64,000 nucleotides of DNA from Xanthomonas hydrangeae (GTDB lineage Bacteria; Pseudomonadota; Gammaproteobacteria; Xanthomonadales; Xanthomonadaceae). Shown here piece after piece: positions 6,855 through 37,644 of this stretch (the first letter of the stretch is position 1; each line of letters begins with the position of its first letter). The translations under genes and the position numbers were made by a program. Where the stretch lies: positions 3,534,001 through 3,598,000 of the forward strand of contig LR990730.1 of the NCBI GenBank assembly GCA_905142475.1, given 5' to 3'. A model generated the notes under the pieces. The model ran no database searches and was not told the DNA's origin. It saw only the letters and a list, made by a program, of their open reading frames with translations.

Positions 6855-6932
6855 TGATCAGGCCGCACCGCATCTGACCGCCGCGCCGCATTCACTGCTC
6901 GCAACCATGCACACCAGCCATCTCCACTGGTC

Positions 6933-7032
6933 CTTGCCCGCCCACCGTCGCGGGACCTTACGCGGCATGGATGCCGCGTAAGAGCCTACATGGACGTACT
7001 TGCGGCGTGTCCCGCGATGGTGGGCGGGCAAG
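6933..7032 (+). repeat. nested palindromic element, type I
   Basis: About 100 bp. The outer arms are CTTGCCCGCCCACCGTCGCG... at the left and the near-perfect complement ending GGTGGGCGGGCAAG at the right (23 of 24 paired). Inside is a 12-bp stem ending in ATGCCGCGTAAG, then the constant core AGCCTACATGGACGTACTTG. The left flank carries the conserved tag CACCAGCCATCTCCACTGGT seen, with changes, beside other type I copies. It lies between the fimbrial operon and the rpsB promoter. Confidence 0.85.
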
Positions 7033-7154
7033 GGCCCCGCAGCCAATCAACAGACCAGCTGCTCTGCCCCCGAAGCATCCACACCTCCAATGAACCTCTC
7101 AAAGCGCCCAAGCTGTTGAGCTTCAGCGCAGCTGGACGTCCCCAATCCGACCAA

Positions 7155-32736: not shown

Positions 32737-32795
32737 ATGGGCAGATTCTTGGCTCATGCGAAGACAGAGTACTGCGTGGTCGCGCGGTCGCGTGC

Positions 32796-32898
32796 GCGGT
32801 GCCCTAGCCGCCCGCGGGACACGCCGCAAGTACGTCCATGTAGCCTCGGTGGCGGCATCCATGCCGCCACACGGTCCCGCAATCGGCGAGGACACCGC
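32796..32898 (+). repeat. nested palindromic element, type II
   Basis: Outer arms GCGGTGCCCTAGCCG... and ...CGGCGAGGACACCGC. The constant core ACACGCCGCAAGTACGTCCA lies next to the left arm. The inner 10-bp stem is GTGGCGGCAT/ATGCCGCCAC. It is followed by the ACCAGAAAG tag and a Phe/Leu-like spacer leading toward the solo arm at 33040. Same orientation as the copy at 33096. Confidence 0.85.
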
Positions 32899-33039
32899 AC
32901 CAGAAAGTGAGCCGGTTACTTTGCTGAAAGCCTGCCTGTTGATCTCTTTGCGTTGCGAAGCTGATCGGACGCGCAGTTATCCAGACAGCGCATGTCATGC
33001 CTTGCTTGCAACCATGCATACCGACCATCTTGATTGGCC

Positions 33040-33064
33040 CTTGCCCGCTCACCGTCGCGGGACC
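33040..33064 (+). repeat. solo type I outer arm
   Basis: CTTGCCCGCTCACCGTCGCG and GGACC, the left arm of a type I element with one base change. It is preceded by the type I flank tag (ATGCATACCGACCATCTTGA) and then breaks off. It looks like a truncated type I copy paired with the type II copy at 32796. Confidence 0.75.
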
Positions 33065-33095
33065 TGATGTAGTCACAAGCTAGTTAGTCGAGTGC

Positions 33096-33198
33096 GCGGT
33101 GCCCTCGCCGCTCGCGGGACACGCCGCAAGTACGTCCGTGTAGGCTCGGTGGCGGCATCCATGCCGCCACACGGTCCCGCAATCGGCGAGGGCACCGC
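33096..33198 (+). repeat. nested palindromic element, type II (composite with next)
   Basis: Same structure as 32796, with arms GCGGTGCCCTCGCCG and CGGCGAGGGCACCGC fully complementary over the outer 15 bp. The constant core and inner GTGGCGGCAT hairpin are intact. It is joined by a 60-bp spacer (ACCAGAAAG ... TTGTTGAAAGCC ... CACCGACCATCT) to the type I copy at 33259. Confidence 0.88.
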
Positions 33199-33258
33199 AC
33201 CAGAAAGATTGCTGGTCGCTTTGTTGAAAGCCATGCACACCGACCATCTCGACTGGTC

Positions 33259-33358
33259 CTTGCCCGCCCACCGTCGCGGGACCTTACGCGGCATGGATGC
33301 CGCGTAAGAGCCTACATGGACGTACTTGCGGCGTGTCCCGCGATGGTGGGCGGGCAAG
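33259..33358 (+). repeat. nested palindromic element, type I (composite with previous)
   Basis: Nearly identical to the 6933 copy, with the same arms and the inner TTACGCGGCAT/ATGCCGCGTAA stem. Together with the type II copy before it, this is a 263-bp composite. The rest of 32739-33535 has no gene. Short open frames across the palindromes encode repeat-derived peptides only. Confidence 0.88.
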
Positions 33359-33535
33359 GGCCCTCCAGCAAACCCACAGGTCACCGCTCTGCAACTGATC
33401 TATCTGCACTGTCCAATCACTTCCACGACAACCGGCATTCAAAGTCGTAGCGTCTTTCAGGTTATGCACTCCAGACCACGCGGTACTGCAGCGATCGCAC
33501 CCGCGTGTCGCACAACTCCCAATCACGCAATGCAC

Positions 33536-34447
33536 TCAACTTTCGCCACTTTTGACCAGCAAGTGCTTGGCGAACATCCCATGCAGCTTGCCGAAGGCGC
33601 GTGCCAGATGCAGCGTGACGAACAGCAGCAGCACGCCGACGACGAACAACGGCAGCGCCAGCAAGGGGCTGGTGACATCCACGCCATCCCAGGTCAGCAC
33701 CGCCGTGTTGTCGAACAACAGCGCCAACGGTGAAGCGGCCAACCCCAGCGACAGCGACAACAATGTGGTGAACACGCTGAAGTAAATGATGCCCAGCGGC
33801 AGCATCAGCAGGAAGTACAGCATCGTGCTCCAGGTGCGCGCATCGGTGAACATCGCACCGATGCGTTGCAGCCAACTGCCCTGCAGCCCGGGATGCGCAG
33901 GGCGACGCGGCATGCGCACGCCGAGCAGCGTCTCCACCACGCGGCCTTCCACCAGCGACAGCACACGCACCGACCCGAAAAACAGCACCAGCAGCGGCAC
34001 ACCGATGATCAGGATCAACAGGCCCGCCGACAGACTCGCGCCGGTCACCACCCAGGTGAAATAGAACACGCCGGTGACCAGAGACAGCAGCATGTAGAAC
34101 AATGCGCCGTACGTGCGCGGGTCGGCCGCGACGCCGAAGAACCTGCCCACCCAGGAACTGCGTTTGGGCGGCAGCGGCGGACGCAGTGCGCGCGTCACCG
34201 TCACTTCGGTCTCGCGATAGATCTCGGCCACTTCATCCGGCGCGCCGTAGCTACCGGCCACCGCCGCGATCACTTCCGCCTCGCTCTTGTCAGCGTGCTC
34301 GGCCAGTTCAGCGCGCAGGTATTCCTCGGCGTCGTAGAGTGCGTCCTGAATCATCGCCGGGTCCGCGCCGGCCAGGGCCTGGCGCAACTGGGTCAGGTAA
34401 TCGGGAATGGTGGTCGGCAACGGACGTGTCTGCGCAATGGTCGTCAT
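33536..34447 (-). CDS. membrane sensor protein with HAAS-like N-terminus
   Basis: 303 residues. The first 90 residues form a soluble helical module (IPDYLTQLRQAL, MIQDALYDAEEYLRAEL, YGAPDEVAEIYRETEV) of the HAAS/DUF1700 kind often encoded beside PadR regulators. The rest has about six membrane helices in two pairs, separated by a cytoplasmic loop with VVETLLGVRMPRRP, similar to the putative-sensor family. It is translationally coupled to the PadR gene (ATGA overlap), so it probably acts with that regulator. The signal and output are unknown. Confidence 0.75.
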   Translation of the reverse strand: MTTIAQTRPLPTTIPDYLTQLRQALAGADPAMIQDALYDAEEYLRAELAEHADKSEAEVIAAVAGSYGAPDEVAEIYRETEVTVTRALRPPLPPKRSSWVGRFFGVAADPRTYGALFYMLLSLVTGVFYFTWVVTGASLSAGLLILIIGVPLLVLFFGSVRVLSLVEGRVVETLLGVRMPRRPAHPGLQGSWLQRIGAMFTDARTWSTMLYFLLMLPLGIIYFSVFTTLLSLSLGLAASPLALLFDNTAVLTWDGVDVTSPLLALPLFVVGVLLLFVTLHLARAFGKLHGMFAKHLLVKSGES

Positions 34448-34812
34448 GGGTGAGTCCCCTCCAGCACTGAATCAACGGAATCGCGGGTGGCGCGCCAGGC
34501 GGCGGTCCAGTCGCGCAGGCAATCGCGCCCGGTTTGGGTGATGCGGTAGTAGCGCCGCGGCGGACCGGACGCAGAGGGCTCGACATGGCTCTGCAGCAGC
34601 CCTGCCGCTTCCAGATTGCGCAGCACCGGATACAGCGCACTCTGCTTGCCGCTCAGCACGCCATCCAATCGCTCCAGGCGCTTGGCGATCAGGTAGCCAT
34701 ACAGCGGCTCGTCGGCCTGCGCCAGCACTGCCAGCAATGCCAACGACACGGTGCCGGCGCTCAGTTCTTTCTGAAATTTTCGTAGGTAGGCATCCGGCTC
34801 GCTCATCGCCAT
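34444..34812 (-). CDS. PadR family transcriptional regulator
   Basis: 122 residues. The winged-helix DNA-binding domain covers most of the protein (TVSLALLAVLAQADEPLYGY, IAKRLE, SALYPVLRNLEAAGLLQS, RRYYRITQTGR, the typical PadR pattern). A short C-terminal helix allows dimerisation. The gene precedes and overlaps the sensor gene by 4 nt, a pairing seen widely in which the regulator represses its own operon until a signal is sensed. An ATAC...GTAT dyad lies 20 nt upstream of the start. Confidence 0.9.
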   Translation of the reverse strand: MAMSEPDAYLRKFQKELSAGTVSLALLAVLAQADEPLYGYLIAKRLERLDGVLSGKQSALYPVLRNLEAAGLLQSHVEPSASGPPRRYYRITQTGRDCLRDWTAAWRATRDSVDSVLEGTHP

Positions 34813-34831
34813 CTCCGCTAGGTCGAAGACG

Positions 34832-34853
34832 ATACTAGTAAGAAGTTAGGTAT
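34832..34853. promoter_or_regulatory. possible PadR operator
   Basis: Imperfect dyad ATACTA ... TAGGTAT just upstream of the padR start, in an A+T-rich stretch unlike its surroundings. PadR proteins bind such short dyads over their own promoter. This is inference only. Confidence 0.3.
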
Positions 34854-34890
34854 AGCGAATGTGCTGTTAGTCATGGAGCCGGGTTATGTC

Positions 34891-35024
34891 ATTCGGGATT
34901 CGGGATTCGGGATTCGCAAAGGCATGCCGGCCGAGAATTTCGGTGTATCGACTCAAGCGAACTGAAGAAGAAGTGGCACACCAATCCCCACACCCGCTGC
35001 TGCGAATCCCCAATCCCCAATGAC
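34891..35024. repeat. inverted heptad-repeat pair between padR and the porin gene
   Basis: Left arm 34891-34916 has almost four ATTCGGG units followed by the GCAAAGGC tail. Right arm 35002-35024 has GAATCCCCAATCCCCAATGAC. The remainder of 34813-35148 is promoter-sized sequence for the divergent genes with no other feature recognised. Confidence 0.75.
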
Positions 35025-35148
35025 AAATTCCGGCTCATGTACTTAGAACCATTGGGTTACTGCCTTTACGGCATGGCTCCACTACAGTCCTTGGTCACTG
35101 AGCCGATACACCGTGCTCAGGCGACTCACTTTTAGATAGGGCGACACG

Positions 35149-36723
35149 ATGCGACTTGCGCGTTTGGCACGACCGGCCATGGCTGACACTTCCTTTGGTA
35201 CCACCCGGCGCCTCTGCCTTGCGATCGGGTTGTCGCTGCCTGGCGTGAGCGTTGCACAGGCGCAGACAGCGCCGGTCAATGCCGAGCAGACCCAGCCGGA
35301 CACCACCAAATCGCAAGCGCCTGCCGCAGCACCTGCTGTCCCTGCTGCGCCCGCTGCATCCAAGGGTTACCCGCTCGAAGCGCAGGGTTGGGGTGCCAAA
35401 CAGGGCGGCAACATGTGGCAGGTGCGCTGGGTCGAAGACTGGTCGTATCTGAAAGATCCGTCCAAGCGCAAGAGCCCGTTCGATCCGCTCAAGTACATCC
35501 CGCTCAGCGAATCCGGCGATGTCTACGTGTCGCTCAGCAACGAGCTGCGCGTACGCAGCAACACCATCACCAATCCCGGCCTGATTCCGGGCAGCCATTC
35601 GCAGCAGCAGTATCTGTTACGTGCATTCTTCGGCGCCGACTTCCATGTCGGCGAGCACTTCCGTCTGTATACGGAACTGGCGCACGGCAGTCTGGATGGG
35701 CGCAACGAAGGCGCCAAGACCGGTACCCAGGAAAACAATGCGATCCTGCAGCAGGTGTTCTTTGACGTGAAGGGCGACATCGGCGGCGCCGACACCGGTC
35801 TGCGTGTGGGCCGTCAGGTGTTCGTCGACGGCCCGACCACATTGATGGCGCTGCGCGACAACACCGATATCTTTGTGACCTTCAACGGTGTGCGCGCCTG
35901 GGCGATCGGCGAAAAGACCCGTGTGGACGTGTTCGATTTCAACTTCAATCTGGATGGCACCGAAGGATTGGGCGACGATCGCATCGACCGCTCGCGGCAT
36001 TTCCGCGGCGTGGTTGGCGGGTATCGCCTGCCGACCGCCAAGCCGATGTATCTGGAGCCGTTCTTCTACCAGTTCCGCAACGACAATCAGCTGTGGGGCC
36101 GGCAGACCGCCGAAGAAAACCGCAATTACTACGGTCTGCGTCTGTGGGGCAATGTGGGCAAGCTGCGCACTGATTCGTTCGTGACCGTGCAGCGCGGCAG
36201 CTTCGGCGGACGCGACCTGCGCGCGTACATGGCGAGCACCTCCAATGCCTGGACGTTGAGCGATAGCGGCTGGAAGCCGCGCGTGGGGTTTCATAGCGAA
36301 ATCGCCTCCGGTGGCGGCGGTACCTCCGGCACCGGCACCTTGCGCAACAACAATTTTCTCTACGGCAACACGATCTACTTCAGCTGGGCGACGTTCTTCG
36401 GCCCGGTCAACCTGGTCACCGCCGCGCCGACGCTGATCTTCTCGCCCACGCCCAAGCTCACCGTGAACCTGGAGTGGGAAACCTTGTGGCGCCAGACCAC
36501 CAGCGATGCGATCTACAACAACCAGGCGCGCGCCTATGCACGCACGCAGAGCACCGGCGAGCGCCGCATCGGCACCATGCCGCGCATCAACGCGACCTGG
36601 AACATCGACCCGAACTGGTCGGTGACCTTCCGCGCCGAACACCTGATCGCCGGCCCTGCGCTGACCAAGGCCGGTTACGGCGATTCGACCTTCGTGATGG
36701 GGTGGTTGAATTTCCGGTTCTGA
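35149..36723 (+). CDS. alginate-export family outer membrane porin
   Basis: 524 residues. After an export signal (LCLAIGLSLPGVSVAQA) and a Pro/Ala/Gln-rich linker of about 45 residues, the rest alternates like a beta-barrel: VYVSLSNELRVRSNTITNPG, LRAFFGADFHVGEHFRLYTEL, LRVGRQVF, VDVFDFNFNLDG. It closes with WLNFRF and a terminal Phe. This matches the alginate_exp/AlgE-like family (18-strand barrels), whose members also transport other acidic or aromatic solutes, so the substrate is open. It is monocistronic and lies between two inverted composite repeats. Confidence 0.75.
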   Translation: MRLARLARPAMADTSFGTTRRLCLAIGLSLPGVSVAQAQTAPVNAEQTQPDTTKSQAPAAAPAVPAAPAASKGYPLEAQGWGAKQGGNMWQVRWVEDWSYLKDPSKRKSPFDPLKYIPLSESGDVYVSLSNELRVRSNTITNPGLIPGSHSQQQYLLRAFFGADFHVGEHFRLYTELAHGSLDGRNEGAKTGTQENNAILQQVFFDVKGDIGGADTGLRVGRQVFVDGPTTLMALRDNTDIFVTFNGVRAWAIGEKTRVDVFDFNFNLDGTEGLGDDRIDRSRHFRGVVGGYRLPTAKPMYLEPFFYQFRNDNQLWGRQTAEENRNYYGLRLWGNVGKLRTDSFVTVQRGSFGGRDLRAYMASTSNAWTLSDSGWKPRVGFHSEIASGGGGTSGTGTLRNNNFLYGNTIYFSWATFFGPVNLVTAAPTLIFSPTPKLTVNLEWETLWRQTTSDAIYNNQARAYARTQSTGERRIGTMPRINATWNIDPNWSVTFRAEHLIAGPALTKAGYGDSTFVMGWLNFRF

Positions 36724-36816
36724 GCAAGCGGTATGCTCCGATCGTTGTTCTGCACTGATCTGCGCACTAGGATCGGACGCGATGAATGTGTTGGTTGCAT
36801 AGCGGCTGATCTGTGG

Positions 36817-36849
36817 CTTGGCTGCGGCTTGGCTGCGGCTTGGCTGCAG
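36817..36849 (+). repeat. three tandem 11-bp units
   Basis: CTTGGCTGCGG, CTTGGCTGCGG and CTTGGCTGCAG in direct tandem immediately before a type I element. The third copy carries one change. A single related unit (CTTGGCGGCAG) stands at the same place before the 37262 element, so the array is a local expansion of the element's flank. Confidence 0.7.
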
Positions 36850-36853
36850 GGCC

Positions 36854-36953
36854 CTTGCCCGCCCACCATCGCGGGACACGCCGCAAGTACATCCGTGTAG
36901 GCTCTTACGCGGCATCCATGCCGCGTAAGGTCCCGCGACGGTGGGCGGGCAAG
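36854..36953 (-). repeat. nested palindromic element, type I, inverted
   Basis: Type I arms and inner stem as at 33259 but in opposite orientation: the core ACACGCCGCAAGTACATCCG precedes the inner hairpin. One arm position is an A-C mismatch. The right flank carries the complement of the CACCGACCATCT tag, leading to the type II copy at 37010. Confidence 0.88.
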
Positions 36954-37009
36954 GACCAGTGGAGATGGTCGGTGTGCAGGTTTTCAACAAAACAGCCGAC
37001 TCACTTTCT

Positions 37010-37115
37010 GGTGCGGTGTCCTCACCGCTTGCGGGACCGTGTGGCGGCATGGATGCCGCCACCGAGCCTACATGGACGTACTTGCGGCGTGTCCCGCGAG
37101 CGGTGAGGGCACCGC
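37010..37115 (-). repeat. nested palindromic element, type II, inverted
   Basis: Arms GCGGTGTCCTCACCG and CGGTGAGGGCACCGC, inner GTGGCGGCAT/ATGCCGCCAC hairpin, core in reverse. It forms with 36854-36953 a composite that is the inverted equivalent of 33096-33358. Relative to the 33096 copy, both arms have a G-C pair replaced by A-T. Confidence 0.88.
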
Positions 37116-37261
37116 GCGCTCGACTAACCAGGCTTTTGACCTACGCATTTGACTGCACCTACGACGACGCACCGAATCGAAAGATTGATTGGCTTTGAGT
37201 AGTTGGACAGTGCGGGGAGATCGCTTGTAGAGCCGACGATCTTCGGCTTGGCGGCAGGGCC

Positions 37262-37361
37262 CTTGCCCGCCTACCGTCGCGGGACACGCCGCAAGTACGT
37301 CCGTGTAGGCTCTTACGCGGCATCCATGCCGCGTAAGGTCCCGCGACGGTAGGCGGGCAAG
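37262..37361 (-). repeat. nested palindromic element, type I, inverted
   Basis: Fully paired arms. It carries CCTACCG on the left and CGGTAGG on the right where other copies have CCCACCG and GGTGGG, a paired double change that keeps the stem. The inner hairpin and core are as in the other type I copies. Confidence 0.88.
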
Positions 37362-37499
37362 GACCAGTCAAGATGGTCGGTCTGCATGGTGCAAGCAATG
37401 CATGACGTTCGTTGCTTAGATAACGGCGTGTAAGATCATCTTCTCAATGCAGTCAGCGCAATGGGCAGGCTTTCAACAAAGCAACCTATAAACTTTCTG

Positions 37500-37605
37500 G
37501 TGCGGTGTCCTCACCGCTTGCGGGACCGTGTGGCGGCATGGATGCCGCCACCGAGCCTACATGGACGTACTTGCGGCGTGTCCCGCGAGCGGTGAGGGCA
37601 CCGCG
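37500..37605 (-). repeat. nested palindromic element, type II, inverted
   Basis: Essentially identical to the 37010 copy over 100 bp, including the GGTGCGGTGTCC entry and the exit CCGCGCGCTCGAC. With 37262-37361 it forms a third composite whose internal spacer is longer (138 bp). It ends 39 bp before the next gene. No gene lies within 36724-37644. Confidence 0.88.
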
Positions 37606-37644
37606 CGCTCGACCGACTCGGTTTTTGACTGCATCTAAACGCCA

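Follow-up and report, generated by a model that had tools for sequence, protein, structure and literature searches.

Palindromic elements of the YPAL/RU-2 type (YPAL, Yersinia palindromic sequence, 168 bp) are described as mobile and intergenic, with both empty and filled sites, and might affect the stability of upstream transcripts (PMC2229807); YPAL insertions are reported with variable target-site duplications of 3–26 bp. Repetitive extragenic palindromic (REP) sequences and bacterial interspersed mosaic elements (BIMEs) linked to REP-associated tyrosine transposases (RAYTs) are high-copy intergenic palindromes that often form dimers of opposite orientation, lie mostly downstream of genes and, in other genera, are targets of insertion sequences (PMC3733652). 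CsrA binding was predicted earlier for the Rfam family TwoAYGGAY (RF01731; PMC4333381), and Ysr224 (RF02770, Yersinia sRNA 224) is counted among the most prevalent small RNAs (sRNAs) in a review (PMC9029176). The present analysis concerns a palindromic unit of ~110 nt that is clustered in a 64,000-nucleotide stretch of Xanthomonas hydrangeae (assembly GCA_905142475.1, contig LR990730.1, positions 3,534,001 to 3,598,000), called the window below. It is probable that these elements are a Xanthomonas-type branch of a gammaproteobacteria-wide class of YPAL/RU-2-type miniature insertions, with the RNA fold and the CsrA decoy function proposed here; the CsrA step taken by itself is held more tentatively, at somewhat under an even chance. 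Sequence comparison establishes family membership, the consensus fold, the wobble-tolerant strand, insertion polymorphism, a preference in Xanthomonas for sites downstream of genes, the occurrence of facing pairs and the presence of two insertion sequences in one hairpin.

The unit folds as a three-way junction, in which long arms of variable sequence (P1) enclose two hairpins, the conserved P2 and the variable P3. Copies were recognised with R1, a covariance model built from 39 copies with dissimilar arms, 36 of them from other genera, which were also picked for TCC in the P3 loop and aligned over the core; the strand of a copy is given as the strand whose loops read GGA. R1 returned eight copies in the window, each spanning model positions 1–109, seven of them in the cluster and one at 6928–7036, and the apical motif GGCATCCATGCC occurred eight times in the window against 0.04 expected. 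On these two counts the original prediction of a clustered palindrome family with seven full copies, a truncated arm and an outlying copy at 6.9 kb is borne out. Its description of a constant unpaired core was mistaken, as the core contains P2, whose stem covaries. Double changes were found in 38 of 44 consensus pairs of the 39-copy alignment, and among 115 R1 matches from 80 named loci both sides had changed in 40 of 43 pairs. In the 115-copy alignment, which was fitted to R1 and so favours the structure, 93.0% of pairing cells were paired (57.4% shuffled, at most 44.9% slid) and the covariation score was 0.722 (0.164 shuffled, at most 0.119 slid). Stem pairs of P2 in the X. hydrangeae genome alternated between UA (105) and CG (5), AU (86) and CG (20), and CG (98) and UA (12). 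Folded as a single sequence, the copy at 33254–33362 formed P1 and P3, with other pairings in place of P2, at −88.3 kcal/mol (z −11.5). In the consensus fold the P1 arms are free to change provided that they pair, P2 with its 5-nt bulge is conserved and P3 is variable.

Wobble pairs bear on which strand is folded. On the GGA strand of P1, G.U pairs outnumbered A.C mismatches by 186 to 50, with 26 of 35 source groups favouring G.U, one favouring A.C and eight tied, in an alignment fitted to a model that allows G.U. An aligner scoring both mismatches alike showed the bias in the same direction: A.C against G.T on the core strand stood at 112 to 16 in 46 Xanthomonas-type copies, 53 to 22 in 26 Methylotuvimicrobium-like copies and 185 to 85 in 109 others. 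Within the X. hydrangeae genome, where the copies are closely related, the ratio of G.U to A.C on the GGA strand was 260 to 11. This bias indicates that the GGA strand is the folded one, either as RNA or as single-stranded DNA.

On that strand the loops of both P2 and P3 read C-ANGGAY-G, resembling the CsrA/RsmA consensus, and both are paired hairpins that expose ANGGA in the loop, a trait of CsrA/RsmA-binding RNA. In the R1 alignment the P3 loop held A in 98 of 108 copies, then T (54), G (35), A (18) or C (1), then G (108 of 109), G (107 of 109) and A (107 of 108). A crude hairpin finder that required no particular letters found TCC, which is GGA on the other strand, in 93 of 110 P3 loops of non-Xanthomonas copies; these copies had been collected by the P2 pattern only, with the P3 loop outside the scan pattern. 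The P2 loop in the X. hydrangeae genome was GG in 110 of 110 copies and A in 109 of 110, with the variable position T (38), C (36), G (28) or A (8). The distance from GGA to GGA was 23–24 nt in 32 of 39 rows and 22 nt in one, the other six values probably reflecting the choice of a wrong GGA. With two hexaloops at this mostly constant distance, the RNA might bind one CsrA dimer and so serve as a decoy scattered over the genome or as a 3'-end tether. Sponge RNAs expose ANGGA in hairpins (PMC7366521), and the RsmA consensus in Xanthomonas is given as ACARGGAUG in PMC3937308, according to which rsmB homologues were not identified in Xanthomonas; the RsmA-binding RsmU was described later (PMC7694677). 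At L173, L174, L048 and L216 some copies carry a second GGA-loop motif (GCCATGGAYGGC followed by a hairpin with GCAGGAGC), which either lies within P3 or P1 or is fused to one of them, and L139 holds a variant of it. Sponge RNAs of the CsrB/RsmY/RsmZ type likewise carry hairpins with ANGGA in the loop, and are dedicated sRNA genes, whereas the copies described here are dispersed and their CsrA binding is putative.

Among described repeats, YPAL/RU-2 is one of the closest. The sequence given in Table 1b of PMC2759123 fits 28 of 28 positions of the core CGAGCNTACANGGAYGTATTYACNGCGT (23 fixed, two Y and three free), the best of 20000 shuffles reaching 22; this core was written after seeing both sequences, and one published Yersinia copy was compared. 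The P3 hairpin is present in that copy as well, with the loop containing AAGGAT, and the predicted fold of the copy contains P1, P3 and the apex hairpin of P2, the base of P2 being paired otherwise. It differs in being longer, with imperfect arms, and the window family in turn has two main arm lineages, facing pairs of the two types and tandem arrays; target-site duplications such as those of YPAL have not been defined for the Xanthomonas copies. The original prediction had left room for the elements being a known catalogued repeat, and this is partly the case, given their relation to Yersinia YPAL/RU-2.

At gathering thresholds Rfam gave no match in the window or in seven other loci, and two families matched copies on opposite strands, mostly below threshold. 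In TwoAYGGAY, too, one strand carries both hairpins with their ANGGAY loops; unlike P2, the second hairpin of the Rfam model is longer and has no 5-nt bulge. Its full model (cut-off 43 bits) aligned to a Porticoccus copy at 40.2 bits and to three places in the X. hydrangeae genome, all R1 copies, at 38.8 bits or less; another search with this family listed only two matches in that genome, at 36.3 and 33.1 bits. In genome G246 TwoAYGGAY reached 55 bits, above the cut-off, and the four loci fetched there were R1 copies. Seven above-cut-off TwoAYGGAY loci fetched from genomes G042 and G052 were not copies of this element. These belong to a set of eight non-element matches (L375, L376, L382, L383, L386, L387, L390 and L391; seven above the cut-off) that are possibly another two-hairpin GGA repeat of these two genomes. 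The Ysr224 consensus includes the P2 and P3 core in complementary form. Subthreshold matches to it were found in 21 of 25 genomes, and all ten loci fetched were R1 copies; the best match scored 51.3 bits against a cut-off of 70, none of the 25 genomes had a match above it, and the X. hydrangeae genome had none at E 0.01. In the literature searched, which covered few subscription journals, no paper joining YPAL, Ysr224, TwoAYGGAY and the Xanthomonas repeats was found among those listed, and a search by sequence letters listed no relevant paper. The family is wider than was found described, and a role as CsrA decoy is plausible.

R1 matched all 28 same-genus genomes, with from one to at least 83 copies in each, the high counts being lower bounds under the stricter filters of this search. 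An apparent absence from some of these genomes, obtained with a first strict pattern, was overturned by this result. Elsewhere in the order, R1 matches were found in 4 of 18 genomes (G052 with 39, G042 with 38, G050 with three and G049 with one marginal match). Of 369 genomes in the class, 19 contained the exact core pattern, which occurred 242 times in G309. A scan of species genomes gave at least 120 stretches, the genera listed including Stenotrophomonas, Marinobacter, Rheinheimera, Methylomonas, Methylotuvimicrobium, Halopseudomonas, Luteimonas, Arenimonas, Haliea, Idiomarina and Porticoccus; a 300-bp query had no match in plasmid and phage collections. Four copies in one orientation lie within 5 kb at L160, a record labelled as a Klebsiella pneumoniae metagenome-assembled genome, a label that looks doubtful. 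An integron-like array at this locus was considered and rejected, as reading of its open reading frames (ORFs) showed no recognisable integrase (L160 was not scanned on its own).

Mobility was assessed from orthologous sites. At 6.9 kb the fetched loci represent 29 of 34 relatives: 24 were empty, with both flanks present and no R1 match, three were occupied (G016, G007 and G030) and two were interrupted (G025 and G020); an alignment additionally covered G016 and 13 of the empty sites. The space at 32.7–33.5 kb measures 866 bp in the window and ~150–195 bp in G019, G004, G008 and G002, and G020 and G016 hold copies in it in other numbers. Between the X. hydrangeae genome and G016, array sizes differ, one X. 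hydrangeae array has tandem part-units and one X. hydrangeae copy has no counterpart. Mapping of empty sites in relatives, as the original prediction had proposed, revealed them at 6.9 kb, and the group at 32.8–33.4 kb is missing in these four relatives. The accompanying idea of non-autonomous elements is supported insofar as the copies look non-autonomous and are dispersed, non-coding and polymorphic for presence at both sites; its suggestion of mobilisation by a REP/RAYT system is not supported. No transposase was found among the 25 of 113 Pfam and 25 of 609 NCBIfam families listed for the window (51 of 54 called proteins scanned), and in the 117 of 174 candidate neighbour ORFs scanned in named loci no Pfam family had more than two members. 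Near G000:C1 position 3705234, outside the window, a tandem array of a part-unit comprising the left arm up to half of P2 was observed, which indicates that incomplete units have multiplied too.

P2 has itself received insertions. A 1422-bp insertion sequence, which we take to be IS3-like, was found by its end sequence in fetched stretches of the X. hydrangeae genome at L269:3383–4804, L275:4042–5463, L276:3989–5410 and L304:16673–18094, and in every one of these four cases it interrupts the P2 loop of a type II copy and is flanked by GGG at both ends. The one copy scanned encodes the transposase domains rve, HTH_21 and HTH_Tnp_1. An IS110-family element occupies the P2 base (GAGCCT/ACA) of the G025 orthologue of the 6.9-kb copy (L402, G025:C1:3182700–3185500); the same junction letters interrupt a different, type II copy in G016, and contigs of G020 end at the junction point of G025. 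The insertion of both IS3-like and IS110-family elements makes P2 a repeated DNA target, as REPs are in other genera.

Typed by arm and lower-stem sequence, the seven copies of the cluster divide into four of type II and three of type I, and there is also a truncated type I arm without hairpins at ~33036–33065 (+) where R1 had no match; arms of the window units are 25–28 bp long and 92–96% complementary. The two predicted subtypes do exist as arm lineages, but they are only two among many in the class. Type II copies lie at 32793–32902 (−, 80.2 bits with R1) and 33093–33202 (−, 94.0 bits), the latter being the left member of a pair facing the type I copy at 33254–33362 (+, 109.2 bits). In that type I copy the P3 apex occupies 33290–33301 (+; GGC-ATGGAT-GCC, with an ANGGAY loop) and P2, placed by the family consensus, 33310–33332 (+; GCC-TAC-ATGGAC-GTA, the 5-nt bulge and GGC). 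Two further facing pairs follow, type I at 36850–36958 (−, 105.8 bits) with type II at 37009–37118 (+, 96.9 bits), and type I at 37258–37366 (−, 110.2 bits) with type II at 37498–37607 (+, 96.9 bits), spaced by 408 bp between the type I and 489 bp between the type II copies. The single copy at 6928–7036 is of type I (+, 109.2 bits). Arrays of GGGATTC-type heptamers were also noted in intergenic spaces (window 34880–35030, left of 6834 and orthologous spaces in relatives), sometimes beside an element or in its place; these may correspond to the quadruplex-forming repeat that the title of PMC4692102 mentions.

Genome-wide, GGCATCCATGCC occurred 290 times in X. hydrangeae (154 forward, 136 reverse), the backward-read control giving 0 and 1, and R1 found 114 matches in 610 kb of sources from this genome, window included. 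The 12-mers at L293 and L294 (inside a gene) and at L306 were rejected as element copies, being chance coding matches at which R1 found nothing. Facing pairs with outward GGA strands accounted for 80 of the 114 matches (40 pairs), and a simple string rule, under which five copies stayed untyped, classed 36 of the 40 as type I with type II. Tandem spacings of 407–408 bp come from a larger repeated unit. By naive gene calls on 41 sources (40 motif-chosen regions and the window), 104 copies, not independent where paired, lay between convergent genes in 59 cases, tandem genes in 41 and divergent genes in two, with two inside genes (the chance 12-mers). The 73 clusters of named genomes were distributed as 35 tandem, 26 convergent and 12 divergent, and among them were 17 outward pairs and a single reverse one. 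The YPAL-like location downstream of genes is therefore evident in the X. hydrangeae genome and weaker elsewhere.

The core may act through CsrA-binding RNA, through a DNA structure used in spread, or through both. In the reading preferred here copies would be spread by an enzyme acting in trans and co-transcribed with neighbouring genes, and P2 and P3 would then present two CsrA/RsmA hexaloops (C-ANGGAY-G), the most speculative step. Several results weigh against it. The minimum-energy fold of one Xanthomonas copy makes P1 and P3 and pairs the P2 bases otherwise, and the conservation figures are partly ascertained, P2 having been the search pattern in several searches and the R1 training copies having been selected for TCC. 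Neither a target-site duplication nor an exact unit boundary was defined, as unit ends vary and flanks are too diverged; a transposase association was not found in partial tests of Y1 loci and neighbour ORFs; and Ysr224 is catalogued as an sRNA on the opposite strand. Avoidance of divergent spaces is weak outside Xanthomonas, as the named-genome counts show. A CsrA gene was present in 21 of 23 element-bearing genomes and in 33 of 37 others (defined only by lacking the exact core pattern), and G256 (98% complete) and G403 (85%) hold the element with no CsrA match; since gene presence does not separate carriers, CsrA binding is to be read as something we infer. The conserved GAGC and TTYAC-GGCGT are unaccounted for by CsrA binding. 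Finally, a simple decoy in the 3' untranslated region would predict a GGA strand sense to the upstream gene, and neither data set has this preference: 19 sense and 22 antisense in Xanthomonas, 9 and 15 for single tandem copies outside it. This lack of orientation preference, the insertion of two unrelated insertion sequences into P2 DNA and the large conserved parts unrelated to CsrA binding all suit an element acting at the DNA level, its fold being a hairpin or cruciform recognised by a recombinase during spread and its CsrA-like loops a coincidence. We consider this possible and are inclined to doubt it: C-ANGGAY-G fits the two loops, their variable base falling where CsrA tolerates one, and the G.U bias suggests that a single strand is folded, though G.T wobble in single-stranded DNA could mimic that bias.

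The gene context invites a further explanation, a bidirectional terminator or stabiliser of mRNA 3' ends, whose long GC-rich hairpins would be kept for protecting or ending convergent transcripts, with loops that do not bind CsrA. The excess of convergent over divergent spaces in Xanthomonas (59 to 2), the tight fit of single copies between convergent genes in two Rheinheimera genomes (18/20 and 16/22 bp) and the suggested effect of YPAL on upstream transcripts agree with this. It appears rather unlikely, in that a hairpin alone accounts for neither the conserved loops nor the 5-nt bulge and three-way junction, and the elements could just lie where insertions are tolerated. Mobilisation of a GTAG-type REP/BIME by a RAYT (Y1 HUH) transposase is very improbable. 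The family resembles such systems in its high copy number, its pairs of opposite orientation, the GTAG string of its core and the Y1 genes present in 10 of 12 genomes that bear the element, and the likeness extends to intergenic location, a position mostly downstream of genes and use as an insertion-sequence target. The original prediction had proposed a search for REP-associated transposase genes flanked by the element, yet none of 23 Y1 loci in 12 genomes (21 above the family cut-off) had the core, at two or fewer mismatches, within the fetched stretch of up to ~1.5 kb on each side. The GTAG bases of the core, moreover, pair in P2 and change to GGAG or GGGG together with their stem partner, so that there is no conserved GTAG tag, and the unit of ~110 nt with two hairpins is larger than a single palindrome of 20–40 bp.

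The reading of the elements as YPAL/RU-2-type miniature insertions joins families that were found described apart, namely YPAL/RU-2, TwoAYGGAY and Ysr224 (on opposite strands) and abundant repeats of Xanthomonas-type genomes and of numerous other gammaproteobacteria. Should the loops not bind CsrA, there would still be a mobile repeat under selection for structure, without a known transposase, and with insertion sequences repeatedly in one hairpin. The boldest form of the proposal, which we think unlikely as a whole, is that mobile repeats spread CsrA/RsmA decoy sites by the hundreds: YPAL, Ysr224, part of TwoAYGGAY and the Xanthomonas palindromes would be lineages of one element whose RNA is a two-site CsrA trap, the Xanthomonas copies would form a main RsmA sink, and the copy-number range in the genus (from one to at least 83) would tune the Csr system by transposition. 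If CsrA does bind the loops, the decoy sites of a global regulator would have a way to multiply by transposition, and the natural differences in copy number between species would allow a direct test.

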